Shown here in pieces: positions 9,409-42,378 of a stretch of DNA of 64,000 nt (its first letter is position 1; each line of letters opens with the position of its first letter). The notes beneath the pieces were generated by a model. That model did not search any database. It worked only from the letters and a program-made list of their open reading frames with translations, and had not been told where the DNA came from. The DNA lies in NCBI RefSeq assembly GCF_000012945.1, contig NC_007510.1, positions 1,612,001-1,676,000 on the forward strand. The letters are read 5' to 3'. The translations under genes were made by a program, and so were the position numbers. This stretch comes from Burkholderia lata. GTDB lineage: Bacteria; Pseudomonadota; Gammaproteobacteria; Burkholderiales; Burkholderiaceae.

Positions 9409-9437
9409 TTGGCGTTTGCGCCAAAAATCGCTATAAT
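9409..9437 (+). promoter_or_regulatory. Sigma70 promoter for the rimP-nusA-infB operon
   Basis: -35 TTGGCG (9409-9414), exactly 17 bp spacer, perfect -10 TATAAT (9432-9437). This is the best promoter match in the window. Transcription would start near 9444, giving a leader of about 180 nt before rimP. Confidence 0.8.
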
Positions 9438-9497
9438 CGCGGAGTCGCTGGGCGTACGGATTCAATGTGCGGCTCAGGTGCGACCACCAGTAAGAAG

Positions 9498-9522
9498 ATG
9501 GGCGTTCCGCCCATTTTTTTTT
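9498..9522 (+). terminator. Leader terminator (putative attenuator) upstream of rimP
   Basis: A 7-bp stem, ATGGGCG (9498-9504) with CGCCCAT (9508-9514), loop TTC, running into nine T (9514-9522). It lies about 55 nt after the predicted transcription start and about 100 nt before rimP, so it would stop most transcripts unless read through. Confidence 0.75.
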
Positions 9523-9624
9523 GCTGAAACGGTTAGGCATCTCGGGTAGCGCTTCCTGCGCCGGCTAAGGCGCGCGCCCGCGGGTGAATCGCGAGCGGCG
9601 GGCGCGAACACCTGAGAGGACACA

Positions 9625-10083
9625 GTGCAACTGACGGAACTGATAGAAACCACGGTCACCGGGCTCGGCTACGAGCTGGTGGATCTCGAGCGCACCGGGC
9701 GCGGCATGCTTTGCATCTATATCGATCAGCCTGCCGGCATCTCGCTCGAAGATTGCGAAAAGGTCACGCGTCAGCTCCAGCACGTCTTGACGGTCGAAAA
9801 CATCGATTACGAACGGCTCGAAGTCTCGTCCCCGGGGCTCGACCGCCCGTTGAAGAAGCTGGCCGACTTCGAGCGCTTCGCTGGCAGCGAAGTTTCCGTG
9901 ACCTTGAAAAAGCCGCTGGACGGGCGCAAGACGTACCGGGGCATTCTGCACGCGCCGAATGGCGAAACGATCGGTTTGGAATTTGAGGGGAAGAAGGGCG
10001 AGGCAGCCATGCTGGATTTCACGCTGGCCGATATCGATAAAGCCCGCCTGATTCCGCAAGTTGACTTTAGGAGCCGCAAATAA
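9625..10083 (+). CDS. rimP: Ribosome maturation factor RimP, 152 aa
   Basis: RimP helps late assembly of the 30S subunit. The sequence has the family blocks [17 protein letters not shown], the [19 protein letters not shown] segment, and [20 protein letters not shown], followed by an SH3-like C-terminal domain. Length is normal. Start GTG at 9625 with GAGAGGA six to eight bases before. The stop overlaps the nusA start (TAATG), so translation is coupled. First gene of the rimP-nusA-infB-rbfA-truB operon. Confidence 0.95.
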
Positions 10084-11558
10084 TGAGTCGCGAAGTGTTG
10101 ATGCTGGTGGATGCGCTGGCGCGCGAGAAAAACGTCGACAAGGATGTGGTGCTGGGCGCCCTCGAGGCTGCGCTCGCGTCTGCTTCCAAGAAGCTGTTCG
10201 ACGAAGGCGCCGAAATCCGCGTCCATATCGATCGCGAAAGCGGCGAGCACGAAACCTTCCGTCGCTGGCTCGTCGTGCCCGACGAGGCAGGCTTGCAGGA
10301 GCCGGATCGCGAGATCCTGCTGTTCGAAGCACGTGACCAGAATCCCGACGTCGAAGTCGGCGAGTATGTCGAGGAACCCGTTCCGTCGATCGAGTTCGGC
10401 CGCATCGGCGCGCAGGCCGCGAAGCAGGTGATCCTGCAGAAGGTGCGCGACGCAGAGCGCGAGCAGATCCTGAACGATTACCTCGAGCGTGGCGAAAAGA
10501 TCATGACGGGTACGGTGAAGCGCCTCGACAAGGGCAACTTCATCGTCGAATCCGGCCGTGTCGAGGCGCTGCTGCGCCGCGATCAGCTGATCCCGAAGGA
10601 AAACCTGCGCGTGGGCGACCGCGTGCGCGCGTATATCGCGAAGGTCGACCGCACCGCGCGCGGCCCGCAGATCGAGCTGTCGCGTACGGCGCCCGAATTC
10701 CTGATGAAGCTGTTCGAGATGGAAGTGCCGGAAATCGAGCAGGGCCTGCTCGAGATCAAGGCGGCTGCCCGCGACCCGGGCGTGCGCGCGAAGATCGGCG
10801 TCATCGCGTACGACAAGCGGATCGATCCGATCGGCACCTGCGTCGGCATCCGCGGTTCCCGTGTGCAGGCCGTGCGCAACGAGCTCGGTGGCGAAAATAT
10901 CGACATCGTGCTATGGTCGGAGGATCCCGCCCAGTTCGTGATCGGCGCGCTCGCGCCGGCAGCTGTCCAGTCGATTGTCGTCGATGAAGAAAAGCACTCG
11001 ATGGACGTCGTCGTCGACGAGAACGAGCTGGCTGTCGCGATTGGCCGCAGTGGTCAGAACGTTCGCCTTGCAGGTGAGCTGACCGGCTGGCAGATCAACA
11101 TCATGACGCCGGATGAATCCGCCCTGAAGCAGGGTGAAGAGCGCGACCGTCTGCGTGCGCTGTTCATGGCGCGTCTCGACGTCGACGAAGAAGTTGCCGA
11201 CATCCTGATCGACGAAGGCTTCACGAGCCTGGAAGAAATCGCGTACGTGCCGCTCAACGAAATGCTCGAAATCGAGGCATTCGACGAGGACACCGTACAC
11301 GAACTGCGCAACCGCGCACGCGACGCGCTGTTGACGATGGCTATCGCGAACGAAGAAAAGGTCGAGAACGCAGCGCTGGATCTCAAGAGCCTCGACGGCA
11401 TCACGCCGGAGTTGCTCGCGAAGCTGGCCGAACACGGCGTGCAGACGCGCGACGATCTCGCCGAGCTGGCTGTAGATGAACTGGTCGACTTGACCGGGAT
11501 GGAAGAGGATGCCGCTAAGGCGTTGATCATGAAAGCACGTGAACACTGGTTCCAGTGA
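10083..11558 (+). CDS. nusA: Transcription termination/antitermination protein NusA, 491 aa
   Basis: NusA binds RNA polymerase and nascent RNA and controls pausing, termination and antitermination. The N-terminal RNAP-binding domain (1-130) begins [19 protein letters not shown]. The S1 domain starts near residue 141 ([15 protein letters not shown]). Two KH domains follow ([19 protein letters not shown] near 260, and [18 protein letters not shown] near 320). The C-terminal acidic repeats of the proteobacterial type occupy about 360-491 ([29 protein letters not shown]). It starts within the rimP stop codon. In other bacteria the operon is feedback-controlled by NusA, which fits the upstream leader terminator. 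Confidence 0.97.
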
Positions 11559-11649
11559 GAAATGACCATGGCGCACTGATTTGATGGCGGCCGTATGGCC
11601 TGACCCGATGCTAACCGCAAGGAATCGGTCCTTGCACTAAGAGGAATGA

Positions 11650-14568
11650 ATGGCGAGTAACAACGTAGCCCAATTTGCCGCGGAACTGAAAATGCCTGCT
11701 GGTGTGCTGCTCGAACAGCTGCAGGCAGCGGGCGTCCAGAAAGCGAGTGAAGACGATGCGCTGTCCGAAACGGACAAGGCGCGTCTGCTCGATCATTTGC
11801 GCAAGTCGCACGGCGCAACCGACGGCGACAAGCGCAAGATCACGCTGACCCGCAAGCATACGTCGGAGATCAAGCAATCTGACGCGACGGGCAAGGCTCG
11901 CACCATTCAGGTCGAGGTCCGCAAGAAGCGTACGTTCGTCAAGCGCGACGACGTGAGCGAGGGTGCGGAACAGGGTCAGGCGCAGGTCGCCGAAGCGGAC
12001 GACGATGCAGAACTGAAGCGTCGCGAAGAAGAGGCGCGCCGCGAGGCCGATCTGCTCGAGAAGCAGGCGCAGGAACTGCGCGAGCGTCAGGAACGCCTCG
12101 AGCGCGAGGAAGCAGAGCGCCGCGCCCGCGAGGAAGCGGCTGAAGCCGAGCGTCGTCGCGCCGAAGAAGAAGCGGCGGCGAAGCGTGTCGCGGCTGAAGC
12201 TGCGGCGGCACAGCAGCAGGCAGCCGCACAGCAAGCCGCTGCAGCCGAGCAGCAGGAAGCGGCGAGCACGCAGTCCGCGCAGGACGAAGCACGCGCAGCT
12301 GCCGAACGTGCGGCTCAGCGCGAAGCGGCGAAGAAGGCTGAAGACGCTGCCCGCGAGGCGGCGGACAAGGCGCGCGCCGAGCAGGAAGAGATCAGCAAGC
12401 GTCGTGCGGCGGCAGAAGCCGAAGCGCGTGCGATTCGCGAAATGATGAACACGCCGCGCAAGGCCGTGGTCAAGGCAGTCGAGCCGCCGAAGCCGGTCGA
12501 GCCGCCGAAGCCGGCCGAAGCGAAGGGCACGCTGCACAAGCCGGCAAAGCCGGAAGGTGCGCAGGCGCGTCCGGCCGTGAAGAAGCCGGCCGGTGCTGCA
12601 GCGCCGGCTACGACTGCGCCGGCAGGCGCGGGCGACCGCAACAAGAAGCCGGGCGCAGGCAAGGGCGGCTGGCAGGACGACGCGTCGAAGCGTCGCGGTA
12701 TCAAGACGCGCGGCGATTCGAGCGGCGGCGTCGACCGCGGCTGGCGCGGCGGCCCGAAGGGTCGCGGCCGTCACCAGGACAGCTCGACGTTCCAGGCGCC
12801 GACCGAACCGATCGTCCGCGAAGTGCACGTGCCGGAAACCGTGTCGGTTGCCGACCTCGCGCACAAGATGTCGGTCAAGGCCTCTGAAGTCATCAAGGTG
12901 ATGATGAAGATGGGCCAGATGGTCACGATCAACCAGGTGCTGGACCAGGAAACGGCGATGATCATCGTCGAGGAACTGGGCCACCGCGCGGTTGCCGCGA
13001 AGCTGGACGATCCGGAAGCGCTGCTCGTCGAAGGCGAAACGGGTACCGATGCGGAGCAACTGCCGCGTCCGCCGGTCGTCACGGTCATGGGTCACGTCGA
13101 CCACGGCAAGACCTCGCTGCTCGACCACATCCGCCGCGCGAAGGTTGCCGCTGGCGAAGCGGGCGGCATTACGCAGCACATCGGCGCTTATCACGTCGAC
13201 ACGCCGCGTGGCGTCATCACGTTCCTCGATACGCCGGGTCACGAAGCGTTCACGGCAATGCGTGCACGCGGCGCGAAGGCGACCGACATCGTCGTGCTGG
13301 TGGTGGCGGCCGACGACGGCGTGATGCCGCAGACGAAGGAAGCAATTGCCCACGCGAAGGCGGGTGGCGTGCCGATCGTCGTCGCGATCAACAAGATCGA
13401 CAAGCCGGACGCGAATCTCGATCGCGTCAAGCAGGAACTGGTCGCGGAAGGCGTCGTGCCGGAAGAGTACGGCGGCGATTCGCCGTTCGTGCCGGTTTCG
13501 GCGAAGACGGGCGCGGGTATCGACGATCTGCTCGAGAACGTGCTGCTGCAAGCCGAAGTGCTGGAACTGAAGGCACCGGTCGAGGCGCCGGCCAAGGGCA
13601 TCGTGATCGAAGCGAAGCTCGACAAGGGCAAGGGCCCGGTCGCAACGATCCTGGTGCAGGCCGGTACGCTGAACCGAGGCGACATCGTGCTGGCAGGTAC
13701 GGCCTACGGCCGCGTGCGTGCGATGCTCGACGAAAACGGCAAGCCGACGAAGGAAGCCGGCCCGTCGATCCCGGTCGAAATCCAGGGTCTGTCGGAAGTG
13801 CCGGGTGCGGGCGAAGAAGTGATCGTGCTGCCGGACGAGCGCAAGGCGCGTGAAATCGCACTGTTCCGTCAGGGCAAGTTCCGCGACGTCAAGCTTGCGA
13901 AGCAGCAGGCTGCGAAGCTGGAGAGCATGCTCGAGCAGATGGGCGAAGGCGAAGTGCAGAACCTGCCGCTCATCATCAAGGCCGACGTGCAGGGCTCGCA
14001 GGAAGCACTCGTGCAGTCGCTGCTCAAGCTGTCGACCGACGAAGTGCGCGTACAGATCGTGCACAGCGCGGTGGGTGGCATCAGCGAAAACGACGTCAAC
14101 CTCGCAACGGCATCGAAGGCGGTCATCATCGGCTTCAACACGCGTGCAGATGCACAGGCGCGCAAGCTGGCCGAGTCGAACGGCATCGACATCCGTTACT
14201 ACAACATCATCTATGACGCAGTGGATGAGGTGAAGGCGGCGATGTCGGGCATGCTGGCACCGGAGAAGCGCGAAGTCATCACCGGCATGGTCGAGGTGCG
14301 CCAGGTCTTCAAGGTACCGAAGATCGGTGCAGTCGCCGGCTGTATGGTGACGGACGGTATCGTCAAGCGCTCGTCGTCGGTGCGCGTGCTGCGCAACAAC
14401 GTCGTGATCTTCACGGGCGAACTCGAATCGCTGAAGCGCTTCAAGGACGACGTGAAGGAAGTGAAGCAGGGCTTCGAGTGCGGTATGTCGGTGAAGAACT
14501 TCAACGACATCGTCGAAGGCGACCAGTTCGAAGTCTTCGAAGTGACCGAAGTCGCGCGTACGCTGTAA
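11650..14568 (+). CDS. infB: Translation initiation factor IF-2, 972 aa
   Basis: IF-2 is the GTPase that brings initiator tRNA to the 30S subunit and promotes subunit joining. A short IF2 N-terminal domain (1-55) is followed by a long Glu/Arg/Ala-rich helical linker (about 120-270) and a Lys/Pro/Gly-rich region. A second IF2_N domain lies near 390-445. The G domain starts at about 480 with [21 protein letters not shown] and NKIDKPDA, followed by domains II-IV. GAGGA lies five bases before the ATG. The gap from nusA is 91 bp with no terminator. Confidence 0.97.
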
Positions 14569-30545: not shown

Positions 30546-30646
30546 TCAAATTAAGGCAATCTCGGGGTATTTTCGGATTTGTCTTATATTCATTGTTGAG
30601 GTGAGCCGATATCGTTGTGTCATGGTTACTAAGGCTGGAGATGTCC

Positions 30647-31057
30647 ATGACACCGTATCGCGATCTGACCGACCAAGAGTGGCGCTGCGTAGCGTCGCTT
30701 CTGCCCGAAATGCAGCCGCGCACCGAGTTGCGCGGCCGTCCGTTGGCCAATACGCGTGCCGTCCTGAACGGCGTGCTCTGGGTGATCTACAGCGGCGCAA
30801 CGTGGTCGGCCATGCCGCGTCGTTACCCTTCCTACCAAACTTGCCATCGTCGCTTCAAGGTCTGGCACGAGACGGGCACGTTGATGAGTGTCATGCGTGA
30901 ACTCTATGGCGACGCGGGTGTGAATCTGTGCAACGAGTTGTCGACGCGGATGCGCAAGCACACGCAATCGAAGGCGGCGGAAGCACGCAGCAATGTGGCG
31001 CCCGCGTATCGCGCACCTGGTAGCTATGTGTCGGACACGCTGAAGCATGCAGCGTGA
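30647..31057 (+). CDS. Second solo IS5-type transposase N-terminal domain protein (DUF4096), 136 aa
   Basis: Begins MTPYRDLTDQEWRCVASLL and continues LRGRPLANTRAVLNGVLWVIY, then W..MPRRYPSYQTCHRRF, the DUF4096 pattern. The catalytic DDE part of a transposase is absent. A Ser/Arg/Ala tail ends APGSYVSDTLKHAA. GGAG lies six bases before the ATG at 30647; an ATG two codons earlier (30641) is possible. The gene has its own terminator and no IS ends. Related to, but clearly diverged from, the protein at 3013-3414. Likely a domesticated DNA-binding protein. Confidence 0.75.
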   Translation: MTPYRDLTDQEWRCVASLLPEMQPRTELRGRPLANTRAVLNGVLWVIYSGATWSAMPRRYPSYQTCHRRFKVWHETGTLMSVMRELYGDAGVNLCNELSTRMRKHTQSKAAEARSNVAPAYRAPGSYVSDTLKHAA

Positions 31058-31160: not shown

Positions 31161-31622
31161 TTATTGCTGGCGAACCCAGGTCTGCGAACGACCGAGCAGC
31201 GACACGCCGATGTAACCGCGCACGACGAGCTTCTGGCCGCCGTCTTCAAGCGTCATCTTGCACTTGTAGACCTTGCCGTTCTCCGGGTCGAGAATGTTGC
31301 CGCCGTCCCAGTGGTCGCCTTCCTTCTTCATGGCCTTGATGATCGTCATGCCCTTGATGAGCTGATCCTTGCGCTCGTCCGTGCAAGCGGTGCAGCGGCG
31401 ATCGGGCGTATCGTTCGCGCCGAGGCCCTTGACGACCTTGCCGGTCAGCGCACCGTCACCGTCCTCGGCGATCTGCACGAGTGCCTTCGGCTGATGCGTG
31501 TTGTCGTCGATCGTCTGCCACATGCCGATGGGGTTGTCTGCTTGTGCAAACGTGGGGGCAGCGCAAGCGAGCAGTACGCCGGCGATGGCGATTGCACGAA
31601 ACGGGCGGGTCAGTTGAATCAT
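31161..31622 (-). CDS. Exported DUF2147 protein, 153 aa
   Basis: Signal peptide starting MIQLTRPFRAIAIAGVLLA with cleavage near TFA-Q. The mature domain has the DUF2147 pattern: PIGMWQTIDDNTHQPKALVQ, then a Cys pair CTAC and ILDPENGKVYKCKMTLEDGG, ending LLGRSQTWVRQ. It is lipocalin-like and periplasmic, with unknown biochemical role. GGAGG lies upstream of the ATG. Monocistronic. Confidence 0.85.
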   Translation of the reverse strand: MIQLTRPFRAIAIAGVLLACAAPTFAQADNPIGMWQTIDDNTHQPKALVQIAEDGDGALTGKVVKGLGANDTPDRRCTACTDERKDQLIKGMTIIKAMKKEGDHWDGGNILDPENGKVYKCKMTLEDGGQKLVVRGYIGVSLLGRSQTWVRQQ

Positions 31623-31788: not shown

Positions 31789-33474
31789 TCAGTTGAGCTG
31801 ATACGAGAATGCGGCGTTGATGCGTGGGCTGCGTGATGCGCTTTCGACTGGCGCGTCACCCACCGGCTTCGCGACGTTCAGGTCGAGGCTATAGAAGCGG
31901 CTGTCCGTGAAACGCACGCCGATGCCGACCGACGACATGCGGTTTGGCGACGGTGTACCCGAGTGCAGGTACACACGTGCCATGTCGTAGGCGATGTACG
32001 GCGTAACGGATTTCATGTACGTCCAGCCCGGCGTGAAGCCGCGGTTGACCTCCAGCGACATCCCCCATCCCGAGTCACCCGACGCTTCGCCCGGCTGATA
32101 GCCGAGCGCGTAGCGCGTCGAGCCGAACGAGATCTGCTCGGACGTCGGCAGCGAGTCCGGGCTGTATTGCCCGGTCAGCGAGACCGACGTGCCGATCCGG
32201 AACGGCCATTCGTTGGTTTGCGTGAAGGTCGCGCCGGTGCGGACGAAGGTCAGTGATGTCGGGTCGGCGTACGTATACGTCGTGCCGTTAACCAGGCCGG
32301 TCTGCGATTTCGATGCGCCGAGGATGTCGAATGCCTTTGCGACGTTGACGCTCAGTTTTCGCACCTGCTTCGGTTGTACGCTCGTGTAGTCGAGCTGCAA
32401 TTGCAGCACGCGGACCTGCGACCTGTTGTCGAGGGTATTGCCGTTGATTTTGTTCTGATAGTTGTCTTCGTTATGCGCTGCATAGCCCGACACCGTGCCG
32501 AGCAGGCTGCGCTGGTTGTTCAGAAGTATTGGGTAGGATGCCGAAAGACCGAGCTTCTCGCTTTTTACGGTTCGCTGGACGGTCGACGGCAGCCCCGGAT
32601 TGTCAGTCGGCTTGCCGCGATACGTGCTCGCGTCGAGGCGCGTGATCAGGCCGCTGCTGCCCACGGGTACCGCGCCGCTGAATGCGACGTAGGTCTGCTT
32701 GTCGCGCCCCGGCGGCGCCAGTGCGGAAATGCTCAGTTGCTCGCCGAACGATGTGAGGCCGTTTTCGGTCGCGGTGATGAGACCCTGGACGCCCGGGTGG
32801 TTGAAGTCGATACCGGTGCTGACGTTGAACGGCTTGCGGTCTACCGCGAGTTCGAGCGTCGTGGCACCGTCGGTGGTTTGCGGCGGTGGTACGTTCGCCT
32901 TTACCGTGAGGCCGGGCAACAGGCCGAACGTGTTCACGTAGCGTTCGAACGTCGCGCGGCGCAGCGGGCGATCGGCAGTGATATGGGCGGCGATTGCACG
33001 AATCTTCGATTCCATCGCACCGGGCTTGCCGGTGACCTTGACGTCCGACACATAGCCTTCGACAACCGTGATGCGCACGACGCCGTTCTCGAACGTCTGC
33101 GCAGGAACGAACGCGAACGACAGCGCGAAGCCGCGATCCTGGTACAGCTTCGTCACGCCGTTGGCCGTTTCGATCAGATCGCCGATCGTGATGTCCTTGC
33201 CGACGAGAGGGGTGAAGCGACGCGAGATTTCGTCGAACGGCACGGACTTCACGCCTTCGACCTGGAATGTGGTCGGCGTCAGGTGACGCGACAGCAGCTC
33301 CTGCAACTGCGGCGCCTGCGGTGCGACCTGCACGGTCACGTTCGGGCCGGTTTTCGGCGCGTTGATCTGGGGCAGGGAGTCGAGCGGGTTACCTCCGACG
33401 CGCGTTTGTGCATGTGCCGTGCCTGCTGCCGCGATGGCGAGCAGCATCATCCATCGGTCGAGTCTGGATTTCAT
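31789..33474 (-). CDS. ShlB/FhaC/HecB-type outer-membrane transporter (TpsB), 561 aa
   Basis: Two-partner secretion transporter. Signal peptide with AHA-Q cleavage near residue 22. A POTRA domain (about 68-145) includes VEGVKSVPFDEISRRF and VVRITVVEGYV, and a second POTRA-like segment runs to about 225. The 16-strand barrel follows (about 230-561), with VSTGIDFNHPG as first strand and a C-terminal aromatic strand NAAFSYQLN. The L6 tip usually reads VRG-Y/F; here it is RYALGYQPGE, with no obvious Arg. No TpsA gene with a TPS domain is adjacent. The two genes upstream in the operon encode repeat lipoproteins that may be its clients. Co-directional, 144 bp after the second lipoprotein. Confidence 0.85.
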   Translation of the reverse strand: MKSRLDRWMMLLAIAAAGTAHAQTRVGGNPLDSLPQINAPKTGPNVTVQVAPQAPQLQELLSRHLTPTTFQVEGVKSVPFDEISRRFTPLVGKDITIGDLIETANGVTKLYQDRGFALSFAFVPAQTFENGVVRITVVEGYVSDVKVTGKPGAMESKIRAIAAHITADRPLRRATFERYVNTFGLLPGLTVKANVPPPQTTDGATTLELAVDRKPFNVSTGIDFNHPGVQGLITATENGLTSFGEQLSISALAPPGRDKQTYVAFSGAVPVGSSGLITRLDASTYRGKPTDNPGLPSTVQRTVKSEKLGLSASYPILLNNQRSLLGTVSGYAAHNEDNYQNKINGNTLDNRSQVRVLQLQLDYTSVQPKQVRKLSVNVAKAFDILGASKSQTGLVNGTTYTYADPTSLTFVRTGATFTQTNEWPFRIGTSVSLTGQYSPDSLPTSEQISFGSTRYALGYQPGEASGDSGWGMSLEVNRGFTPGWTYMKSVTPYIAYDMARVYLHSGTPSPNRMSSVGIGVRFTDSRFYSLDLNVAKPVGDAPVESASRSPRINAAFSYQLN

Positions 33475-33518
33475 TGTTCTTCCTCGTTGGCCTTGCTTTT
33501 CGTCTTCTTTGTAATGCC

Positions 33519-33546
33519 GGCGCGCGACACCAAGGTGCCGCGCGCC
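33519..33546 (-). promoter_or_regulatory. Intercistronic stem-loop between lipoprotein 2 and TpsB genes
   Basis: GGCGCGCG (33519-33526) pairs with CGCGCGCC (33539-33546). An inner CACC/GGTG pair continues across one mismatch. Twelve paired bases, no T-run; probably an mRNA-stabilising or translation-limiting hairpin. Confidence 0.5.
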
Positions 33547-33618
33547 GCGTGCCGCAATGCCGGTTGTGTTTGTACGGTCGCGCCATCCGCTCCGGCTGCG
33601 AAGGTGCGACCGTCCTCC

Positions 33619-35040
33619 TTACTTGCCAACGCTACCCAGCGTACCCAGCAATCCCGTTACCGGTGCCAGCAGGCCCGTCGACCCGCCGCCCGACGATGCC
33701 GAACCCGTGACACCGCCGACCAGCGACGTGACCGGTGCGAGCGGGCTCGCTCCCCCCGATCCTGCTGCGCCGCCAACTGCTCCGGTGACAGTATTCAGCA
33801 AACCGGTGACAGGCGCGAGAGGGTTTGCACTGCCTGCACCACCCGTTGCGCCACCGAGCGTGCCCGTGACCGTCGACACGAGATTCGTGACGGGGGCGAG
33901 CGGGCCGCCGCTGCCGCCCGCTGCACCGCTCAGTGCACCGGTGACGGTGGAGACGAGGCCCGTGACGGGCGCGAGCGGGCTGCTGCCCGAACCGCCGGTC
34001 GCGCCGCCGAGTGCGCCCGTGAGCGAGCCGAGCGGCGTCGAGCCGAGACCCGACAGCAGGCCGCCGAGCGGATTCGTCGAGCCGGAACCCGACGACGTGC
34101 CGTTCTGTACGGTCGCCGTCGAGCCGCCGACGAGGCTCGTGATCAGGCCGGGGATCGGTGCCGCGCCGTTCGGGCCGTTCGGGTTGACGAGGCCGCCCGC
34201 GTTGGTCACGGTGTTGCCGACCGCAGTGACGAGCTGGCCGACATCGCCGACGAGCGGCTGGCTCGACGTACCGCCGACCTGCTTGCCGGCCGAGCTGATC
34301 GCGCCGCCGACCTGGCCGAGCAGGCCCGAGACGGGTTGGCCGAGGCCGGTCGTCGTGCCGACCTGTTGCGTGACCTGGCCGGCGGTGATCACGAGCGGCG
34401 TGATCGCCGAGCTGAGCGGCTGCGTCACCTGCTGCACGGCGCCCGACGACAGCGTCGAGCCGATCGTCGTGCCGGCGGCCGTCAAGCCGTTGGCCACCGT
34501 ATCAAGCACGGTGCCGACCGGGGTCGTGACGGGCGCGAGCGGCGCGAGCTGACCGGTGCCGAGCGCCTTGACCGTCGAGCTCAGGCCGGACACTGTGTTG
34601 CTCGTCGCGCCGACCACGTTGCCGAGGCCTGCGACGGTCGTGCCGACCGGATCCTTGGTCGTGCCGATCTGTCCCAGCCCGTTGCTCACGGCATCGGCGG
34701 CTGCGCCGACGATCGTGCCGGTGCTGGAGAGCGTGCTGCCGACCCCCTTCGTCACGCCGTCGCCGAGCCCCGGCACGCTGATGTTGCCGACCGTGCTGCC
34801 GAGGTCGGTGGCCGTCTGGCCAACCGTGCTGACGACGCCCTTGGTACCGGTCGACGTGCCGCTGGTGCCGCTCGTGCTCGGCGTACCGCTCGTGCTCGGG
34901 TTGTTGCTGTTGCTGCTGGTCGGCGGCGAGCTGACGCCGCCGCCGCCGCAGGCGGCCAGCAAGCAGGCGGCGGCGAAGGCCGTGAGGGGCACGCGCCATT
35001 GGCGCACGGCGGCGGTCGTGAGAGAACGTTGCTGGGACAT
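33619..35040 (-). CDS. Repeat-rich lipoprotein 2, collagen-like/low-complexity, 473 aa
   Basis: Lipoprotein signal with lipobox L-A-A-C (Cys31) followed by GGGG. Then comes a Ser/Thr/Asn spacer with a few S-G-T triplets (residues about 35-65). The rest is almost only Gly, Ser, Thr, Val, Leu, Ala, Pro and Asn, with no Cys after Cys31. The C-terminal third carries about five copies of a roughly 25-residue unit related to PLAPVTGLVSTVTGAL. It is a tandem paralogue of lipoprotein 1 (both share a TTKDPVGTT/ATKDPLGTT block). GAGGAG lies before the ATG. 40 bp downstream of lipoprotein 1. Probably surface or periplasmic; no enzymatic motif, no TPS domain. Confidence 0.8.
   Translation of the reverse strand: MSQQRSLTTAAVRQWRVPLTAFAAACLLAACGGGGVSSPPTSSNSNNPSTSGTPSTSGTSGTSTGTKGVVSTVGQTATDLGSTVGNISVPGLGDGVTKGVGSTLSSTGTIVGAAADAVSNGLGQIGTTKDPVGTTVAGLGNVVGATSNTVSGLSSTVKALGTGQLAPLAPVTTPVGTVLDTVANGLTAAGTTIGSTLSSGAVQQVTQPLSSAITPLVITAGQVTQQVGTTTGLGQPVSGLLGQVGGAISSAGKQVGGTSSQPLVGDVGQLVTAVGNTVTNAGGLVNPNGPNGAAPIPGLITSLVGGSTATVQNGTSSGSGSTNPLGGLLSGLGSTPLGSLTGALGGATGGSGSSPLAPVTGLVSTVTGALSGAAGGSGGPLAPVTNLVSTVTGTLGGATGGAGSANPLAPVTGLLNTVTGAVGGAAGSGGASPLAPVTSLVGGVTGSASSGGGSTGLLAPVTGLLGTLGSVGK
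33690..34020 (-). repeat. Tandem coding repeats in lipoprotein 2
   Basis: About five imperfect 70-80-nt units encoding PLAPVTGLVSTVTGAL..AAGGSG-type segments. Copies vary in the Gly/Ser spacer and in Leu/Val choices. Confidence 0.7.
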
Positions 35041-35080
35041 GATTGACTCCTCGCTGTCTTGTCGATTGATGGATGTTGGT

Positions 35081-36757
35081 TTACTTGCCGTGCGTGCCGC
35101 CGAGCAGGCCGCCGATCAGCGACGTGACAGGTGCGAGCGGATTCGACGACGAGCCACCGTTCGTGACGGCACCCGTGCCGCCGGTCAATGCCGGCGCGCC
35201 GACCGCGTTGGTCACCGTGGACACGACGTTCGTCACCGGGGCGAGCGGGCTGCTGCCGCCTGCGCCGCCCGTCACGCCGCCGAGTGCGCCCGTGACCGCG
35301 CCGAGGAGACCCGTGACCGGCGCGAGCGGGCCGCTGCTCGTGCCGCCCGTTGCGCCGCCGAGCGCGCCCGTGACCGTCGAGACGAGGCCGGTGACCGGGG
35401 CAAGCGGGCCGCCGCTGCCGCCTGCTGCACCGCCGAGTGCGCCCGTGACCGTCGAGACAAGGCCGGTGACCGGGGCGAGCGGGCCGCCGCTGCCGCCTGC
35501 TGCACCGCCGAGTGCGCCCGTGACCGTCGAGACGAGGCCGGTGACCGGCGCGAGCGGGCCGCTGCCGCCACCCGCTGCACCGCCAAGCGCACCGGTGACC
35601 GTCGAGACGAGGCCGGTAACCGGAGCGAGCGGGCTGCTGGCGCCACCCGTTGCGCCGCCGAGCGTACCCGTGACCGTCGTGAGGAGACCCGTGAGCGGGG
35701 CGAGCGGGTTGGTCACGCCGCCGCTGCCGCCCGTGAGCAGGCCACCGACGGCCTTCACGGTGTTGCCCGTGGACGAGACCGTGTTGCCAAGGCCGGTCGT
35801 GACGGGGTTGCCGCCCGTTGACGCGAGCAGGGCGCCGGCCTGGTTCAGGCCGTTGCCGACCGTGCCGAGCAGCGTGTTGACGGGCGCGCCGAGGCCGGTC
35901 GCCGTGCCGATCGTCTGGGTCGTCTGGCCGACCATCGTCGTGATCGGCGTGATGGCCGAGCTGACCGTCTGCGTGACTTGCTGGATCGGGCCGGTCGACA
36001 GTGCGTTGGTGAGGGTGTTGCCGCCGTTCGAGACGGCACCGCCAAGGGTCGACACGAGGCCGCCGACGGCGCCCGTGACCGGTGCGAGCGGCGACAGCGG
36101 GCCGCTGCCGAGGCTCGTGACCAGGGTGCCGGTCTGCGTGACCGCGCCGCCGAGTTGATTGACCACGTTACCCGTGCTGGCGAGCGTGGTGCCGAGCGGA
36201 TCCTTCGTCGCGCCGAGCTGGCCGAGACCGTTGCCGAGGCCGTTGCCAAGTGCCGTCACCGCGCCGCCGACGCTTTGCACGACGCCGCCTGCGGCTTTCG
36301 TGGTGGCCGGGTTGACGCCCGGCAGCGACTGGCTGCCGATGACGGAGCCCAGACCCGAGACGGTGCTGCCGACACCCGTGATGATGTTGCTGCTGTTTGC
36401 GAGGACATTTCCCACCGGGTTCGACGACACACCCGAGGTGCCGGAAGTACCGCTCGTGCCCGACGTACCGCTGGTGCCGCTCGTACCCGAGGTTCCGCTG
36501 GTGCCGGACGTACCGCTGGTACCCGAAGTGCCGCTGGTGCCCGACGTGCCGCTCGTGCCGGAGGTACCGCTGGTGCCCGAGGTACCGCTCGTGCCCGACG
36601 TGGAGATCGTGTCGCCGCCGCCCGAACTCGAGCCGCCGCCGAGACCCTGGCTGATGGAACCGGAACCACCGCACGCGGAGAGGGAAAGCATGGCTGCAAC
36701 GGTGGCCGCGATCAGAGTCGTCCGGAACACGCCATGAGGGATAACCTTAATGTCCAT
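35081..36757 (-). CDS. Repeat-rich lipoprotein 1, collagen-like (Ser-Gly-Thr tract), 558 aa
   Basis: Lipobox L-S-A-C (Cys29) after a hydrophobic signal. A Gly/Ser spacer follows, then an uninterrupted run of about 18 Ser-Gly-Thr triplets (residues about 53-106). This fits the Gly-X-Y spacing of collagen-like proteins but has no proline. The middle is a Val/Thr/Gly/Asn region, and residues about 350-520 are tandem 25-26-residue units around GPLAPVTGLVSTVTGAL. Annotators would call it collagen-like; only the S-G-T run justifies that. GAGGAC lies before the ATG. First gene of the leftward set, divergent from flp. Likely a cell-surface or adhesive protein (inference). Confidence 0.8.
   Translation of the reverse strand: MDIKVIPHGVFRTTLIAATVAAMLSLSACGGSGSISQGLGGGSSSGGGDTISTSGTSGTSGTSGTSGTSGTSGTSGTSGTSGTSGTSGTSGTSGTSGTSGTSGTSGTSGVSSNPVGNVLANSSNIITGVGSTVSGLGSVIGSQSLPGVNPATTKAAGGVVQSVGGAVTALGNGLGNGLGQLGATKDPLGTTLASTGNVVNQLGGAVTQTGTLVTSLGSGPLSPLAPVTGAVGGLVSTLGGAVSNGGNTLTNALSTGPIQQVTQTVSSAITPITTMVGQTTQTIGTATGLGAPVNTLLGTVGNGLNQAGALLASTGGNPVTTGLGNTVSSTGNTVKAVGGLLTGGSGGVTNPLAPLTGLLTTVTGTLGGATGGASSPLAPVTGLVSTVTGALGGAAGGGSGPLAPVTGLVSTVTGALGGAAGGSGGPLAPVTGLVSTVTGALGGAAGGSGGPLAPVTGLVSTVTGALGGATGGTSSGPLAPVTGLLGAVTGALGGVTGGAGGSSPLAPVTNVVSTVTNAVGAPALTGGTGAVTNGGSSSNPLAPVTSLIGGLLGGTHGK
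35270..35710 (-). repeat. Tandem 75-78-nt coding repeats in lipoprotein 1
   Basis: Five to six units encoding PLAPVTGLVSTVTGALGGA-type segments. Copies around 35390-35540 are nearly identical at DNA level, so they are prone to copy-number change. Confidence 0.8.
36438..36599 (-). repeat. Eighteen 9-nt repeats encoding (Ser-Gly-Thr)18
   Basis: Eighteen consecutive 9-nt units with a fixed protein sequence but mixed serine codons (AGC and TCG families), mixed Gly (GGT/GGC) and mixed Thr codons. Confidence 0.85.
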
Positions 36758-37433: not shown

Positions 37434-37604
37434 ATGAAAGCAATCATCAAGCGTTTCCTTAAGGAAGAAGACGGGGTTACCGCAGTCGAGTACGGGCTCA
37501 TCGCCGGACTGGTAGCCGTTGCTCTCGTCACTGCCGTTGGCACGTTGACGACGGGTATCTCGGGGGCGTTCAGCTACATCGCGAGCCAGCTGCCGAAGGC
37601 ATAA
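37434..37604 (+). CDS. flp: Flp-type pilin, 56 aa
   Basis: Major subunit of the Tad pilus. Short Lys-rich leader (MKAIIKRFLKEEDG) with prepilin-peptidase cleavage expected after the Gly, then the Flp hydrophobic helix VTAVEYGLIAGLVAVAL containing the required Glu and the adjacent Tyr. A short C-terminal segment ends ASQLPKA. GAGGA lies before the ATG; the open frame extends 30 codons upstream without a site. First gene of the Tad locus, followed by a perfect hairpin before tadV. Confidence 0.95.
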   Translation: MKAIIKRFLKEEDGVTAVEYGLIAGLVAVALVTAVGTLTTGISGAFSYIASQLPKA

Positions 37605-37640
37605 CGACCGAGCTTTTAGCTCATTTCCCTGTTGTTAGGG

Positions 37641-37666
37641 ACGCGGATTGCTTCGGCAATCCGCGT
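37641..37666 (+). promoter_or_regulatory. Perfect stem-loop between flp and tadV
   Basis: 11-bp stem ACGCGGATTGC (37641-37651) with GCAATCCGCGT (37656-37666), closed by a TTCG tetraloop. Only GTTTTG follows 8 bases later, so it is probably a partial terminator or 3'-stabiliser for the flp mRNA. Confidence 0.75.
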
Positions 37667-37693
37667 AGGTAAGTTTTGCCGCTCGGGGCGTAA

Positions 37694-38188
37694 ATGATCC
37701 TGCTAACTGGCGTCGGGGTTTTCCTCGCGTGGGCGGTGCTTGTCGCGCTCGAGGATATCCGTCATAGGCGTATACCCAATTCACTGGTGATCGGTGGATT
37801 TGTATCCGCATTTCTGGTCTCCGGACATAATCCATTCGGCATATCGGTGAATCAGGCGCTCATTGGCGCACTGATCGGCCTTGCCAGTCTTTTCCCGTTT
37901 TTTGTACTGCGCGTCATGGGCGCCGCGGATGTCAAGGTGTTCGCGGTGCTCGGCGCGTGGTGCGGTCCTCAAGCCTTGTTGTGGCTCTGGATCATGGCGA
38001 GCCTGCTCGCGCTCGCCCATGTCGGCACACTGGTTTTCGCAACCCGTACGCCGGTATTGGCGTTATGGCAGCGGCGCTCGCCGACGATGGAGATCGCCGG
38101 ATTCCGGGCGTCGCCGTATGCCGCCTTTCTCGTGATTCCGGCGGTGCTGTGGTGCGTGTACAGGATCGCGACCGGGGGGATGCAATGA
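37694..38188 (+). CDS. tadV: A24 prepilin peptidase TadV/CpaA, 164 aa
   Basis: Membrane aspartyl protease that cleaves the Flp and TadE/F leaders. The first catalytic Asp is in LEDIRHRRIPNSLV (about residue 21) and the second in the MGAADVKVFAVLGAW loop (normally GxGD). Several hydrophobic helices, as in the short TadV group without the N-methyltransferase domain. Overlaps tadE by 4 bp (ATGA). Confidence 0.92.
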   Translation: MILLTGVGVFLAWAVLVALEDIRHRRIPNSLVIGGFVSAFLVSGHNPFGISVNQALIGALIGLASLFPFFVLRVMGAADVKVFAVLGAWCGPQALLWLWIMASLLALAHVGTLVFATRTPVLALWQRRSPTMEIAGFRASPYAAFLVIPAVLWCVYRIATGGMQ

Positions 38189-38679
38189 CGTCGCGTCGTG
38201 TCGCAGCTGGCATGAGGCGTCGCGAGCGCGGCACGACGGCTATCGAATTTGCGCTGATGCTGCCGATGTTCTTTCTGATCCTGTACGCGATCATCACGTA
38301 CGGGATGATCTTTGCCGCGCAGCAAAACCTGACGCTTGCCGCGACAGAGGGCGCACGCGCCGCGTTGAACTATCAGCAGGTCGGATCGGCTGCGTCGGTG
38401 CAGGCTGCGCAGCAAGCCGCGCTTGCGTTACGGGCCCAGGCTGCCTGCACGGCTGCAACGAACCTGACCACGTGGCTGAAGGGGGCGACGTGCGCGCAGA
38501 CGCAGCAAGGCACCTGTTCGTACGATGCGACGATGTTGTGCGTGCAGATCACGCTGACCTATCCGTATTCGCAAAGCCCGCTGATCCCGGCGTTCCCGCT
38601 GCTCGGTTCGCTGTTGCCGGTGCCGTCGACGCTCACCGGAACGGCGATGGTGCAGATCAGCCCGGTCAACATCATTTAG
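38185..38679 (+). CDS. tadE: TadE-type pseudopilin, 164 aa
   Basis: Leader RRRERGTTAIEFALMLPMFFL has the TadE-like signature: a Gly at the cleavage point, a Glu at +5 and a hydrophobic helix. The periplasmic part contains a pair of Cys-rich segments (QAACTAATNL, TCAQTQQGTCSYD). Start ATG at 38185 inside the tadV stop (ATGA), so translation is coupled. Minor pilin-like component needed for pilus assembly. Confidence 0.88.
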   Translation: MTSRRVAAGMRRRERGTTAIEFALMLPMFFLILYAIITYGMIFAAQQNLTLAATEGARAALNYQQVGSAASVQAAQQAALALRAQAACTAATNLTTWLKGATCAQTQQGTCSYDATMLCVQITLTYPYSQSPLIPAFPLLGSLLPVPSTLTGTAMVQISPVNII

Positions 38680-38774
38680 AAGACAGCGATGGCGCCGTGC
38701 GTGATCGAGGGTGGCCGGTCGGTAATGCCGCGCGGAGAATTCAATCGTAAGTAGCGGGGAAACATAACAACACC

Positions 38775-39677
38775 ATGGCCAACAATCTGACGAAGATCAT
38801 TGCGGGCTTGCTGATCGCGATCGCGGTCCTTCTTGGCGTCTATGCGTGGATGCTCGGTCGCAAGCCGGCGGATGTCGCGCCGGTCGCCGCGACGGTTGCT
38901 ACCCAAAGCGTGCCGGTCGTCGTCACGACGCGGGCATTGCCGGCCGGGCAACCGATTCCGGCCGATGCACTGAAGGTCCAGCAGTCGACCGCCGCGCCGC
39001 AGGGCGCGTTCGCCGATCCGTTGCAACTCGTCGGCCGCGTCCCGGCCGCGGACATTCCGGCGCAGGCAGCTATCGTCGCCAGCGCACTGTCGTCCGGCCT
39101 GGCCGAGCAGATCGCGCCGGGAGAACGTGCCGTCGCGATCAAGGTTGACGAGACCAACGCGGTCGGCAACCGCGTGCGGCCCGGCAACTATGTCGACGTG
39201 TTCTTGAACCTGAAGCGTGACGGGACTGGCGTGGCGATCGGCGGCACGTCGACGGCCGAGATCGTGAATACCCAGGCACGCCTGCTGATGTCGAAGGTCC
39301 GGGTGCTCTCGTTTGGCGATGCAACGACCGAGCGTGACAGCTCGAATGGTTCCGTGGTCGGCATGCGGACCGCGGTGCTTGCCGTACCCACCGCGCAGGT
39401 TGACGCGCTGACGCTCGCCGAGCAGAGCGGTCGGCTCGTGCTCGCGCTTCGCAACCCGCGTGACGACGATGTCGCCGCGCAGACCGTCGCGGTTCGAGTG
39501 GGCGACGACAAGAGCCCGTCGGCGCTTGCTGCCACCGGTGTCGTGCTGGGCGAGTTGTCGAAGAGTGCGACTGCGCCGGCCCCGCGTGCTGCGGCGGCGC
39601 GGGTGGTCACGCGGCATTCGAGCGGCGGCGGTATCGAAGTGATTCGCGGCGGGCGGGCCGAGATGGTCGCCTATTGA
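38775..39677 (+). CDS. cpaB: Flp pilus assembly protein CpaB/RcpC, 300 aa
   Basis: One N-terminal membrane anchor (KIIAGLLIAIAVLLGVYAW), then an SAF domain (about 48-110, VVVTTRALPAGQPIPADALK) and the RcpC domain with VKVDETNAVGNRVRPGNYVDV. The protein is periplasmic and stabilises or gates the secretin. The 95-bp gap after tadE contains only a 21-codon open frame without support. Standard position before the secretin. Confidence 0.92.
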   Translation: MANNLTKIIAGLLIAIAVLLGVYAWMLGRKPADVAPVAATVATQSVPVVVTTRALPAGQPIPADALKVQQSTAAPQGAFADPLQLVGRVPAADIPAQAAIVASALSSGLAEQIAPGERAVAIKVDETNAVGNRVRPGNYVDVFLNLKRDGTGVAIGGTSTAEIVNTQARLLMSKVRVLSFGDATTERDSSNGSVVGMRTAVLAVPTAQVDALTLAEQSGRLVLALRNPRDDDVAAQTVAVRVGDDKSPSALAATGVVLGELSKSATAPAPRAAAARVVTRHSSGGGIEVIRGGRAEMVAY

Positions 39678-39732
39678 GAGCGGGACAAAGACGACAACCA
39701 GAGAAGGGGGGCGGTTCGATGCCTCCGAAACA

Positions 39733-41064
39733 ATGAAAAAGAAACTGATTGGATTAGCTATTGCATTGAGCGCGCTGGCCATGCCGCCGCTGTCGGGCGC
39801 GGCCGACACGAGCGGGACGATCAGCCTGGCGGTCGGCGCACAACGGCAGCTCGCGACGGGGCGTGCGCTGCAGCGGGTTGCGGTCGGCGATCCGTCGGTC
39901 GCCGACGTGATGGTCGTGAAGGGCGGGCGTGGCGGTGTCCTGCTGATAGCGAAGAGCGCCGGCGCGACGAACGTGATGATCTGGGAGCGCGGTCACGACG
40001 AACCGACCGTCTACAACGTGAGCGTCACGAGCGGCGCGGCGCGTGCGTTGCTTGACGGTGGGACGTCGAGCGTGAATACGTACGGCGGCACGACGGTGAT
40101 CGGCGGTGCGTCCGGGTCGCTCGACGGGCATCAGCGGGCGGTTCATGCGGCGAAGACGGTCAGCGGCAAGGACGGGACGACGATCGATGCGTCGACGATC
40201 TCCGGCAAGAACGTCGTGCAGGTCGATGTGCGCGTCGTCGAATTCAGCCGTTCGGTGCTGAAGCAGGCAGGGCTGAACTTCTTCAAGCAAAGCAACGGTT
40301 TTTCGTTCGGTGCCTTCGCGCCGACCGGGCTCACGTCGATTACCGGTTCGCCGGGCGGTGCGCTTACGTACAACACGAACGTGCCCATTTCGTCAGCGTT
40401 CAATCTGGTCGTCAATTCGGTGTCGCACGGGTTGTTCGCCGATCTGTCGATCCTCGAAGCCAACAATCTCGCCCGCGTGCTGGCACAGCCGACGCTCGTC
40501 GCGTTGTCCGGCCAGAGCGCGAATTTCCTGGCGGGTGGTGAAATTCCGGTGCCGGTGCCGCAATCGCTGGGCACGATCTCGATCGAATGGAAGCCTTACG
40601 GCGTGGGGCTGACCGTCACGCCGACCGTGTTGAACCCGCGCCGGATCGCGCTGAAGGTCGCGCCCGAGTCGAGCCAGCTCGACTTCGTGCACTCGATCAC
40701 GATCAACGGTGTTCAGGTGCCCGCGCTGACGACCCGGCGCGCGGATACGACGGTCGAGCTCGGCGATGGCGAAAGCTTCGTGATCGGCGGTTTGATCGAT
40801 CGCGAGACGACCTCGAACGTCAACAAGGTGCCGTTCCTGGGCGATCTGCCCATCATCGGCGCGTTTTTCAAGAATTTGAGCTATCAGCAGAGCGACAAGG
40901 AACTCGTGATCATCGTAACGCCGCATCTCGTTGCGCCGATCGCGCAGGGCGCGTCGCTGCCGGCGACTCCGGGAGAACTGTCCGAGCAGCGCGACGGCCC
41001 CGTGTGGCGTTCCTATCTGGGCGGCATGGCGTCGCCGGATGCAGGGCCGGGGTTCTCGAAATGA
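39733..41064 (+). CDS. cpaC: Type II/Tad secretin RcpA/CpaC, 443 aa
   Basis: Outer-membrane channel for the Flp pilus. Signal peptide with GAA-D-type end near residue 25, then an N-terminal BON/pilus-assembly domain (AVGAQRQLATGRALQRVAVGD) and the secretin domain. The domain has VDVRVVEFSRSVLKQAG, ARVLAQPTLVALSGQSANFLAGG and the signature IGGLIDRETTSNVNKVPFLG, then ELVIIVTPHLVAPI. The stop overlaps a possible 35-codon frame at 41061. Confidence 0.93.
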   Translation: MKKKLIGLAIALSALAMPPLSGAADTSGTISLAVGAQRQLATGRALQRVAVGDPSVADVMVVKGGRGGVLLIAKSAGATNVMIWERGHDEPTVYNVSVTSGAARALLDGGTSSVNTYGGTTVIGGASGSLDGHQRAVHAAKTVSGKDGTTIDASTISGKNVVQVDVRVVEFSRSVLKQAGLNFFKQSNGFSFGAFAPTGLTSITGSPGGALTYNTNVPISSAFNLVVNSVSHGLFADLSILEANNLARVLAQPTLVALSGQSANFLAGGEIPVPVPQSLGTISIEWKPYGVGLTVTPTVLNPRRIALKVAPESSQLDFVHSITINGVQVPALTTRRADTTVELGDGESFVIGGLIDRETTSNVNKVPFLGDLPIIGAFFKNLSYQQSDKELVIIVTPHLVAPIAQGASLPATPGELSEQRDGPVWRSYLGGMASPDAGPGFSK

Positions 41065-41168
41065 GCGCGCCGAATCATGACGGGACAGCGCAGGCGGTCG
41101 CGCACGACGCGACGCCTTGCTTCATTGTGAGTATCCAAAATGAATGCGAGAACCTATTCTTTGGCTGA
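41061..41168 (+). CDS. Possible 35-aa small protein overlapping the tadZ start
   Basis: ATG at 41061 is inside the secretin stop (ATGA), so it could be translated by coupling. It encodes MSAPNHDGTAQAV... ending ECENLFFG, and overlaps the first nine codons of tadZ in another frame. No family recognised. It may only provide translational coupling to tadZ, whose own ribosome binding site is weak, or be a chance frame. Confidence 0.3.
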   Translation: MSAPNHDGTAQAVAHDATPCFIVSIQNECENLFFG

Positions 41169-42378
41169 GCCCGCCGTCACCGACCTCTTCGTATGCGCAT
41201 CGTCGCTTGCGGAGCACGTGCAATGGCTGTCCCAGTCGCTGGTCTCGGCTGGCGCGGTCGAGGGGGCACCGCTGGAAGGTGCGGCGCTGTCGCAGCGCAT
41301 CGGTGTACTGAATCCGGCGCTGGTATTCATCGATTTTTCGGGTGATTGCGCCGCGGCGAGCACGGTAGTCGCCGCCGTGCGCCTGTCTCATCCGGGCGTG
41401 CCGGTCGTTGCGCTGGGCTCGCTCGCGCAACCGGAGGGGGCGCTCGCCGCGCTGCGCGCGGGTGTCCGCGATTTCGTCGATTTTTCCGCACCGGCCGATG
41501 AGGCGCTGCGCATCACGCGCGTGCTGCTCGACAACGTCGGCGAGCCGGCGAACCGCCACGGGAAGGTCACCGCGTTGCTCGGCGCGCGCGCCGGGATGGG
41601 CGTGAGTACGTTGGCCGCGAACTTGTCGGTGCTGATGCAGAGGCGGCCCGCCGATCCTGCTCACGCGGCTGCGCTCCTCGATCTCGGGTTGCCGGCCGGC
41701 GACGGCGCGCTGTTCCTGAACACGCGCTGCGAATTTCATTTCGTCGAGGCCGTGCGCAACCTGCGCCGGATCGATCGCACGTTCGTGACAACTGCGCTCG
41801 CTCGCCATGCAAGCGGCGTCGCGCTGACCACGCTGCCGCCGAACCTCGCCGATCTGCGCGAAGTGGCAACGGCGTCGTGCGCGGCGTTGTTGAACCGGCT
41901 GCGTGCATTTTTCGATCACCAGATCGTCGATCTCGGCGGTTTCCCGAATCGGGAATTCATTGCGCAGGTCGTGAATCTTGCCGACGAAGCATGGCTCGTT
42001 TGCGACCAGGGCGTGGCGTCGGTCGTATCGGCGATCGAGATGCTGGACGGCTTGCGCGATGCGGGCGCCACGACCGAACGGATCAGGCTCGTGGTCAACC
42101 AGTTCGACGCCGAGCTCGGGCTGATGCCCGCGCAGATTGCCGAACGGCTTGATCTGTCGTTGCTTGCGACGCTGCCGTCACGGCGCGTGTCGATCGGGCA
42201 TGCGGCGAACCAGGGCAAGCTGATTGCCGAGGTCGCGGAACGCGATCCGTACGTGCGTGCGCTCGGGCCGCTGGTCGAGCGCCTCGCGGGCGCACCGGCG
42301 CCCGGGGCGGCACAGCGTGCTGCGGGCGGCCTGTCGGCACTCAAGCGAATCATTCAATCCTCTACGAAGCGGTCGTAA
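41140..42378 (+). CDS. tadZ: TadZ/CpaE, ParA-like pilus localisation protein, 412 aa
   Basis: N-terminal receiver-like domain (about 15-135, PALVFIDFSGD and VVALGSLAQPEGALAALRAG). The ParA/MinD-like domain starts with GARAGMGVSTLAANLS (about 147). The P-loop lysine of GK-S/T is replaced: the sequence reads G-V-S-T. TadZ proteins place the pilus machine at the pole and recruit TadA. The downstream Walker-B-like VDLGGFPNREF block is present. Weak ribosome binding site; possibly coupled to the small frame at 41061. Confidence 0.88.
   Translation: MNARTYSLAEPAVTDLFVCASSLAEHVQWLSQSLVSAGAVEGAPLEGAALSQRIGVLNPALVFIDFSGDCAAASTVVAAVRLSHPGVPVVALGSLAQPEGALAALRAGVRDFVDFSAPADEALRITRVLLDNVGEPANRHGKVTALLGARAGMGVSTLAANLSVLMQRRPADPAHAAALLDLGLPAGDGALFLNTRCEFHFVEAVRNLRRIDRTFVTTALARHASGVALTTLPPNLADLREVATASCAALLNRLRAFFDHQIVDLGGFPNREFIAQVVNLADEAWLVCDQGVASVVSAIEMLDGLRDAGATTERIRLVVNQFDAELGLMPAQIAERLDLSLLATLPSRRVSIGHAANQGKLIAEVAERDPYVRALGPLVERLAGAPAPGAAQRAAGGLSALKRIIQSSTKRS

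Follow-up and report, generated by a model that had tools for sequence, protein, structure and literature searches.

We analyzed a 64,000-nucleotide stretch of the Burkholderia lata genome (contig NC_007510.1, positions 1,612,001 to 1,676,000; hereafter the window) in which a TpsB-type outer-membrane transporter is encoded next to two lipoproteins that carry the Collagen_mid domain. TpsB-type transporters are known exporters of large β-helical proteins. We conclude that the transporter in the window is probably a member of a separate TpsB subfamily whose task is the export of lipid-anchored Collagen_mid adhesins, an export that we infer from the association of the genes. A sequence-only reading of the window had paired this transporter with the two lipoproteins in place of a TpsA exoprotein, and had noted that the L6 motif of its barrel has no obvious arginine. 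The pairing is upheld by co-occurrence of the genes in sampled genomes, by their linkage in relatives, by searches of 80 loci that found no two-partner secretion (TPS) domain and by a separate branch in the TpsB tree; a reading of the L6 change as a sign of the new use is not. A guess made from a single locus is thereby strengthened to a conserved and taxonomically wide pairing.

The window encodes a TpsB-family transporter and two Collagen_mid lipoproteins

The three genes lie exactly where the sequence-only reading had placed them, all leftward, in a genome of 8.68 Mb and three contigs. The gene for the 561-residue transporter (31789..33474, minus strand) is separated by 144 bp from that for a 473-residue lipoprotein (33619..35040, minus strand), which in turn lies 40 bp from the gene for a 558-residue lipoprotein (35081..36757, minus strand). 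A Pfam scan of the transporter to an E-value of 1 gave only POTRA_2 (PF08479; 70.9 bits, cut-off 24) and ShlB (PF03865; 70.8 bits, cut-off 22.7), and thus no match to SlipAM (PF04575, DUF560). The predicted structure contains two POTRA domains and a β-barrel (predicted local distance difference test score, pLDDT, 79.1; predicted template modeling score, pTM, 0.74), with CdiB (6wim) and FhaC (4ql0) as the top Foldseek matches. Sequence and predicted fold both place the transporter in the TpsB family.

Both lipoproteins had been read as paralogous, lipobox-bearing repeat proteins, and this description is borne out: their lipoboxes, LAAC-G and LSAC-G, can be read directly, and the proteins are 44% identical across 210 residues. 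To that description we add that, by profile match, they are members of a known domain family and not nameless repeat proteins, as both match Collagen_mid (PF15984) with scores of 213.5 and 226.9 bits against a cut-off of 31.1. The Gly-X-Y repeat model Collagen (PF01391) was matched in the 558-residue protein only, which has a run of 19 GTS/GVS triplets at residues 55-111. In the structure prediction of the 473-residue lipoprotein (overall pLDDT 60.9, pTM 0.45), seven long helices (residues 67-285; positions 34186..34842, minus strand) cover the Collagen_mid domain (Pfam span, residues 89-286), with ten-residue pLDDT means mostly of 67-85, and the repeats that follow are of low confidence. TPS domains form a β-helix (PMC5422565). 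For Collagen_mid, the "collagen middle region", the prediction is instead a domain of long helices, which would resemble neither a collagen triple helix nor a TPS-type β-helix.

The transporter and Collagen_mid occur in the same genomes

We searched for both genes in three samples: 150 genomes of Burkholderiaceae, 369 genomes from across the class and 299 from across the phylum. In the family sample, 75 genomes had Collagen_mid above the cut-off and 76 had a transporter above 200 bits, and every one of the 75 Collagen_mid genomes (75/75) had both. The 76th transporter (G117) is a copy with an internal TAA stop in a genome in which no Collagen_mid was found. Among the 75 genomes without Collagen_mid, 73 had no transporter, and the other two were G117 and G124, which has a TAA-bearing remnant of 138.2 bits. 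The 200-bit line for the subfamily was set after seeing the gap between 288.6 and 88.6 bits, within which only the G124 remnant falls, and all other TpsB matches in this sample score at most 88.6 bits. Two genomes were counted as transporter-present with the gene in two frames (G068) or on two contigs (G137), and two others (G053 and G061) have two copies each. Broken transporter copies were thus seen in genomes where no Collagen_mid was found (G117 / L152, Pandoraea horticolens; G124), as expected from joint loss if the two genes are lost together.

The wider samples gave the same picture. In the class sample, the three genomes with Collagen_mid above the cut-off (G000, G309 and G512) are also the three that score highest for the transporter, whose gene stands next to Collagen_mid in G309 and G512; the next two transporter matches (G241 and G508, 139-142 bits) adjoin TPS-domain genes. 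In the phylum sample, Collagen_mid exceeded the cut-off in 8 genomes and a transporter of at least 180 bits was present in the same 8, on neighboring coordinates in 8/8, with the ninth transporter match at 107.6 bits. Four genomes of the phylum sample (G288, G574, G634 and G713) and two of the class sample (G191 and G288) had Collagen_mid matches below the cut-off; the former yielded no transporter match at E ≤ 1e-30, and the latter none at the limits used. A few genomes are shared between samples, and Fisher tests on them ignore relatedness; as the sampled genomes are related, they are not independent trials. The pairing of transporter and Collagen_mid is far from chance.

Collagen_mid genes are linked to the transporter in distant lineages

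A scan of named genomes with a subfamily profile gave 282 relatives. We kept the best 80, ranked by likeness to a Methylophaga transporter, and examined their loci with a Collagen_mid profile that was seeded with the two domains of the window and extended over three rounds. A Collagen_mid gene lies just upstream of the transporter gene, on the same strand, in 58 of these best 80 loci, and 18 of the 58 have two such cargo genes. The gap between lipoprotein and transporter in the linked loci is 37-434 bp (median 145), as measured from script-guessed start codons or from the frame start where no ATG fitted. Linked loci were found in Methylophaga, Chromohalobacter, Halomonas, Vibrio proteolyticus, several Enterobacterales, Burkholderia, Paraburkholderia, Caballeronia, Trinickia and Cupriavidus, and the Pfam model confirmed as Collagen_mid all five of the distant cargo proteins submitted to it (5/5). 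In one Halomonas locus (L121, 6260-8779), Pfam places two Collagen_mid stretches in the cargo lipoprotein, and in one Methylophaga locus (L100, 6442-7419) the transporter is followed by a 325-residue repeat protein whose N-terminus is signal-like and in which no lipobox was apparent by eye.

Five of the 22 loci without a linked Collagen_mid gene start within 800 bp of a contig edge (L113, L115, L155, L163 and L174); the rest comprise 14 Pandoraea loci, one Pandoraea-like metagenome-assembled genome (MAG; L172), one Neptuniibacter locus (L120) and one Pseudomonas putida locus (L141). We searched the whole genome for Collagen_mid in 14 of these 22 cases. The domain was present in the genomes of L113, L163 and L174 and, elsewhere in the genome, in five of the six Pandoraea genomes searched; none was found in the sixth, P. 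horticolens (L152), which has no full transporter frame. At the cargo position of the Neptuniibacter locus (8107-8898), we observed a 263-residue repeat lipoprotein without Collagen_mid that ends in DPLVGGLL, much like Methylophaga cargo, and whose C-terminal half resembles the Methylophaga protein (BLASTP E 1e-09, from a single pair of low-complexity sequences). This lipoprotein is, on its sequence, a possible minimal cargo. The P. putida locus (8833-12356) has a subfamily transporter and no adjacent repeat lipoprotein. As both the P. putida and Neptuniibacter transporters lie inside the subfamily in the tree, the missing Collagen_mid looks like loss or replacement.

The subfamily is separate from ordinary TpsB systems

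With a local profile, a TPS domain was found at 0/80 subfamily loci versus 11/20 loci of other TpsB proteins, and Collagen_mid was found at 0/20 of the latter. In a TpsB tree of 58 rows, the 38 subfamily rows split from the 20 others with a Shimodaira-Hasegawa-like approximate likelihood-ratio test (SH-aLRT) support of 100 (quick method, midpoint root). The statement that no TPS-domain gene is near the window locus also holds, as both PF05860 matches of the genome lie on another contig. The same genome has four POTRA_2 matches, one just at the cut-off. The start of one PF05860 match is 1.8 kb away from one of these, and the other PF05860 match, in a 4300-residue frame, lies about 29 kb start to start from another of them, a weaker pairing. 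We considered an orphan TpsA elsewhere in the genome as the true partner of the transporter; this is not supported, given that both TPS matches share a contig with POTRA_2 at these distances. Because the TPS domain is missing, we do not file the system as a two-partner secretion system.

The sequence-only reading was correct that the L6 arginine is missing: Leu457 stands at the arginine position of the VRGY/F motif, and Asp497, by alignment the salt-bridge partner of that arginine, is kept. In the 79 full frames from the 80 loci, the arginine is present in 30/30 rows from other gammaproteobacterial lineages. Among the 48 Burkholderiaceae rows, which include L172, the residue is Leu in 42, Gln in 3, Ala in 2 and Arg in 1, and the row of a Luteibacter MAG has Tyr; the partner aspartate is conserved in 78/79. 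The loss of the arginine is real and nearly clade-wide. As relatives that keep the arginine have the same lipoprotein partner, the loss is no marker of lipoprotein export, and we reject it as a signature of that function. Homology to TpsB stands despite the loss because of the Pfam domains and the predicted FhaC/CdiB-like fold.

Lipoboxes and C-terminal tails of the Collagen_mid proteins

A strict lipobox behind a signal-like stretch was found in 71 of the 76 Collagen_mid frames of the 58 linked loci. Four of the remaining five are Methylophaga-group proteins with Ser at lipobox position -3, and the fifth is truncated at a contig end. The residue at position +2 is Gly, Ser, Ala or Thr, and never Asp, in 72/72 frames parsed by a second script; under the Lol sorting rules, the absence of Asp at +2 favors the outer membrane. 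The window's genome has five Collagen_mid genes and one such transporter, and because of these numbers one transporter probably serves several cargoes. Two of the three unlinked paralogs have a lipobox; in the frame of the third, a search by reading of residues 1-250 showed none.

A hydrophobic C-terminal tail pattern is present in 76/112 Collagen_mid frames, versus a mean of 14% of interior windows, and Lys, Arg or His falls within the last five residues in 104/112. Because the pattern was picked after viewing the tails, and because genes that were fetched twice recur among the 112 frames, the tail as a signal is only a lead.

Published data and the Tad neighborhood

In gene length and order, the locus agrees with BCAL1520, BCAL1522, BCAL1523, BCAL1524 and the Flp pilin gene BCAL1525 of Burkholderia cenocepacia J2315, as listed in Table 1 of PMC10224339; orthology here means this layout and not a sequence comparison with J2315. 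By layout, the 473- and 558-residue lipoproteins are the orthologs of BCAL1523 and BCAL1524, respectively. BCAL1524 is reported in outer membrane vesicles, and deletion mutants showed less autoaggregation and reduced virulence in Galleria (PMC10303873). PSORT predicts BCAL1524 to be extracellular (PMC10224339 Table 1). The same paper, the only one in the literature searched to name BCAL1522, lists it as a "putative exported heme utilization-related protein" and places it in a possible operon, with no export role assigned in the portion available. BCAL1520, BCAL1523 and BCAL1524 were induced together with Flp genes upon contact with host-membrane vesicles, as described in PMC7970998, and the accessible part of PMC2753556 names BCAL1524-1520 as a putative operon, with several genes of the cluster lower in cepR mutants.

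A gene for a DUF2147 protein identified by Pfam (31161..31622, minus strand; BCAL1520 by layout) lies downstream of the transporter gene, and its place in the functional unit is uncertain. Beyond it, a short frame (30617-31057) stands at the position of the putative transposase BCAL1519 and appears, by reading only, to be a transposase fragment. A scan for promoters and terminators was uninformative (2 promoter-like sites; fewer terminator-like sites than in shuffles). Outside the unit, on the other side, a Flp pilin gene read from the sequence (37434..37604, plus strand) starts a Tad/Flp pilus locus, which is divergent from the three genes as the sequence-only reading had described, with Peptidase_A24, TadE, secretin and TadZ_N identified by Pfam. 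Tad/Flp genes adjoin the transporter in several separate lineages (window 37434-42378; loci L112-L191, L224 and L227), and Tad proteins are encoded near the pair in 26/30 Burkholderia sensu lato loci, 4/4 Cupriavidus loci and 2/3 Halomonadaceae loci; this recurrence suggests a joint adhesion module. No Tad match was found at the transporter loci of 18/18 Enterobacterales or 6/6 Methylophaga/Piscirickettsiaceae. We rejected the Tad pilus as the real partner of the transporter: it is a recurring neighbor, yet gave no match beside the transporter in the Enterobacterales, Methylophaga-group and Pandoraea loci of the set. At the P. putida locus, a type IV leader peptidase gene (PF01478) lies 1.4 kb downstream of the transporter gene.

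A proposed export route and its alternatives

Sec, Lgt/LspA/Lnt and Lol are the established steps of lipoprotein biogenesis. On the reading that we prefer, the Collagen_mid protein would be exported by Sec, lipidated at the lipobox cysteine and carried to the outer membrane by Lol, as fits the lack of Asp at +2. The POTRA domains, in the role that they have for TpsA, may then capture a not fully folded lipoprotein by its helical Collagen_mid domain, by its Gly/Ser/Thr repeats and C-terminal tail, or by both. The chain would pass through the TpsB-type barrel, leaving the repeats and helical domain outside as an aggregation or adhesion layer, with the lipid either flipped to the outer leaflet or kept inside and the chain threaded out. 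Each transport step, the part of the cargo that is recognized and the eventual location of the lipid are all inferred. For TpsA, an order in which the TPS domain goes first is favored in the available text of PMC5422565. A lipid-anchored N-terminus would be at odds with that order; either the lipid crosses as well, as for Slam cargo, or the chain threads from its anchored end. More tentatively, and with rather more doubt than confidence, the system may be a new type V branch over several Pseudomonadota families, in which lipid-anchored cargo is recognized by a helical domain replacing the TPS β-helix, several cargoes including unlinked paralogs are served, and the chain is threaded outward from its lipid-fixed N-terminus, the reverse of the TpsA order.

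Several observations weigh against dedicated export. In Pandoraea the two genes lie apart. The whole genomes of L120, L141, L115, L155 and L172, the last three being drafts or MAGs, contain the transporter and gave no Collagen_mid match. Nor is the absence of a TPS domain unusual in itself: within the stretches fetched, 9 of the 20 other TpsB loci lack one too (two of the nine are at contig ends, and L107 has a likely TPS gene in another stretch). Moreover, the L6 motif, which PMC5422565 in the text available reports as essential in FhaC, has no arginine in this clade, and the vesicle location of BCAL1524 is no proof of outward topology.

These points leave room for other explanations. The lipoproteins could be periplasmic accessory factors, with the transporter exporting another, unlinked protein. 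There is a precedent in bcpO of Burkholderia contact-dependent growth inhibition, which, depending on the species, codes for a predicted periplasmic lipoprotein needed by BcpA (available text of PMC5422565), and the finding in Pandoraea and P. putida that the transporter gene can occur away from Collagen_mid is consistent with such a role. We nonetheless consider it unlikely, since no TPS domain was found at the 80 subfamily loci, the genome's two TPS matches have POTRA_2 matches on the same contig 1.8 and about 29 kb away, transporter co-occurrence tracks Collagen_mid itself, and BCAL1524 is found in vesicles and acts in aggregation.

Alternatively, the lipoproteins may reach the surface by another machine (the Tad secretin, type II secretion, Slam or the β-barrel assembly machinery, BAM), the transporter being merely co-inherited in one adhesion regulon. 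The recurrence of Tad genes near the pair fits this idea, as does the use of type II secretion by PulA, described in the part of PMC7857515 available, but the lack of Tad matches at the Enterobacterales and Methylophaga/Piscirickettsiaceae loci makes it quite improbable. SlipAM was also unmatched in the window's genome, a weak negative because its controls gave no match anywhere. Finally, we regard as very improbable the idea that these are ordinary type Vb cargoes not lipid-anchored at the surface, with the lipobox unused or the chain cut off and released. Ser at position -3 in the four Methylophaga-group proteins and the extracellular PSORT call for BCAL1524 speak for it; against it, the lipobox is nearly universal over widely separated lineages and would be needless in a released protein.

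Comparison with known systems

Few routes are known for moving lipoproteins across the outer membrane, and a TpsB subfamily dedicated to lipoproteins, if confirmed, adds one. It would also mean that the TPS β-helix is not the sole thing recognizable by a TpsB protein, and would account for the exit of collagen-like adhesins from the periplasm in the B. cepacia complex. Type II secretion, NalP, BAM/RcsF and Slam are the routes named in a review of surface lipoproteins, and the term "two-partner" is absent from its main text (PMC7857515). No TpsB protein with a lipoprotein cargo was found in the literature searched, whose reach left out most subscription papers and all bioRxiv preprints. Our data thus suggest an undescribed route for placing lipid-anchored adhesins on the cell surface.

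The system is most readily compared with two-partner secretion (type Vb; FhaC/FHA, CdiB/CdiA and HxuB/HxuA), with which it shares POTRA_2 and ShlB, a predicted fold nearest CdiB and FhaC, and a repetitive cargo whose gene adjoins that of the transporter. Unlike in those systems, the cargo here has a lipobox, no TPS domain and a conserved domain predicted to be helical, and two cargo genes are present in almost a third of the linked loci. Slam (type XI secretion; TbpB and fHbp) is likewise an outer-membrane protein that serves surface lipoproteins, and Slam1 translocates unfolded TbpB into liposomes, according to the portion of PMC9090332 available; in contrast, the transporter described here has no SlipAM match and combines POTRA domains with a TpsB-type barrel. 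The lipidated autotransporter NalP, and RcsF via BamA, are lipoproteins that cross the outer membrane by a type V or Omp85 barrel (available text of PMC7857515), whereas the transporter and cargo here each have a gene of their own, and the barrel carries no fused cargo and is not the general BamA. The collagen-like proteins BCAL1523 and BCAL1524 of the B. cepacia complex, Collagen_mid adhesins treated in the accessible part of PMC10224339, are by layout and domain the same proteins as the two lipoproteins of the window.

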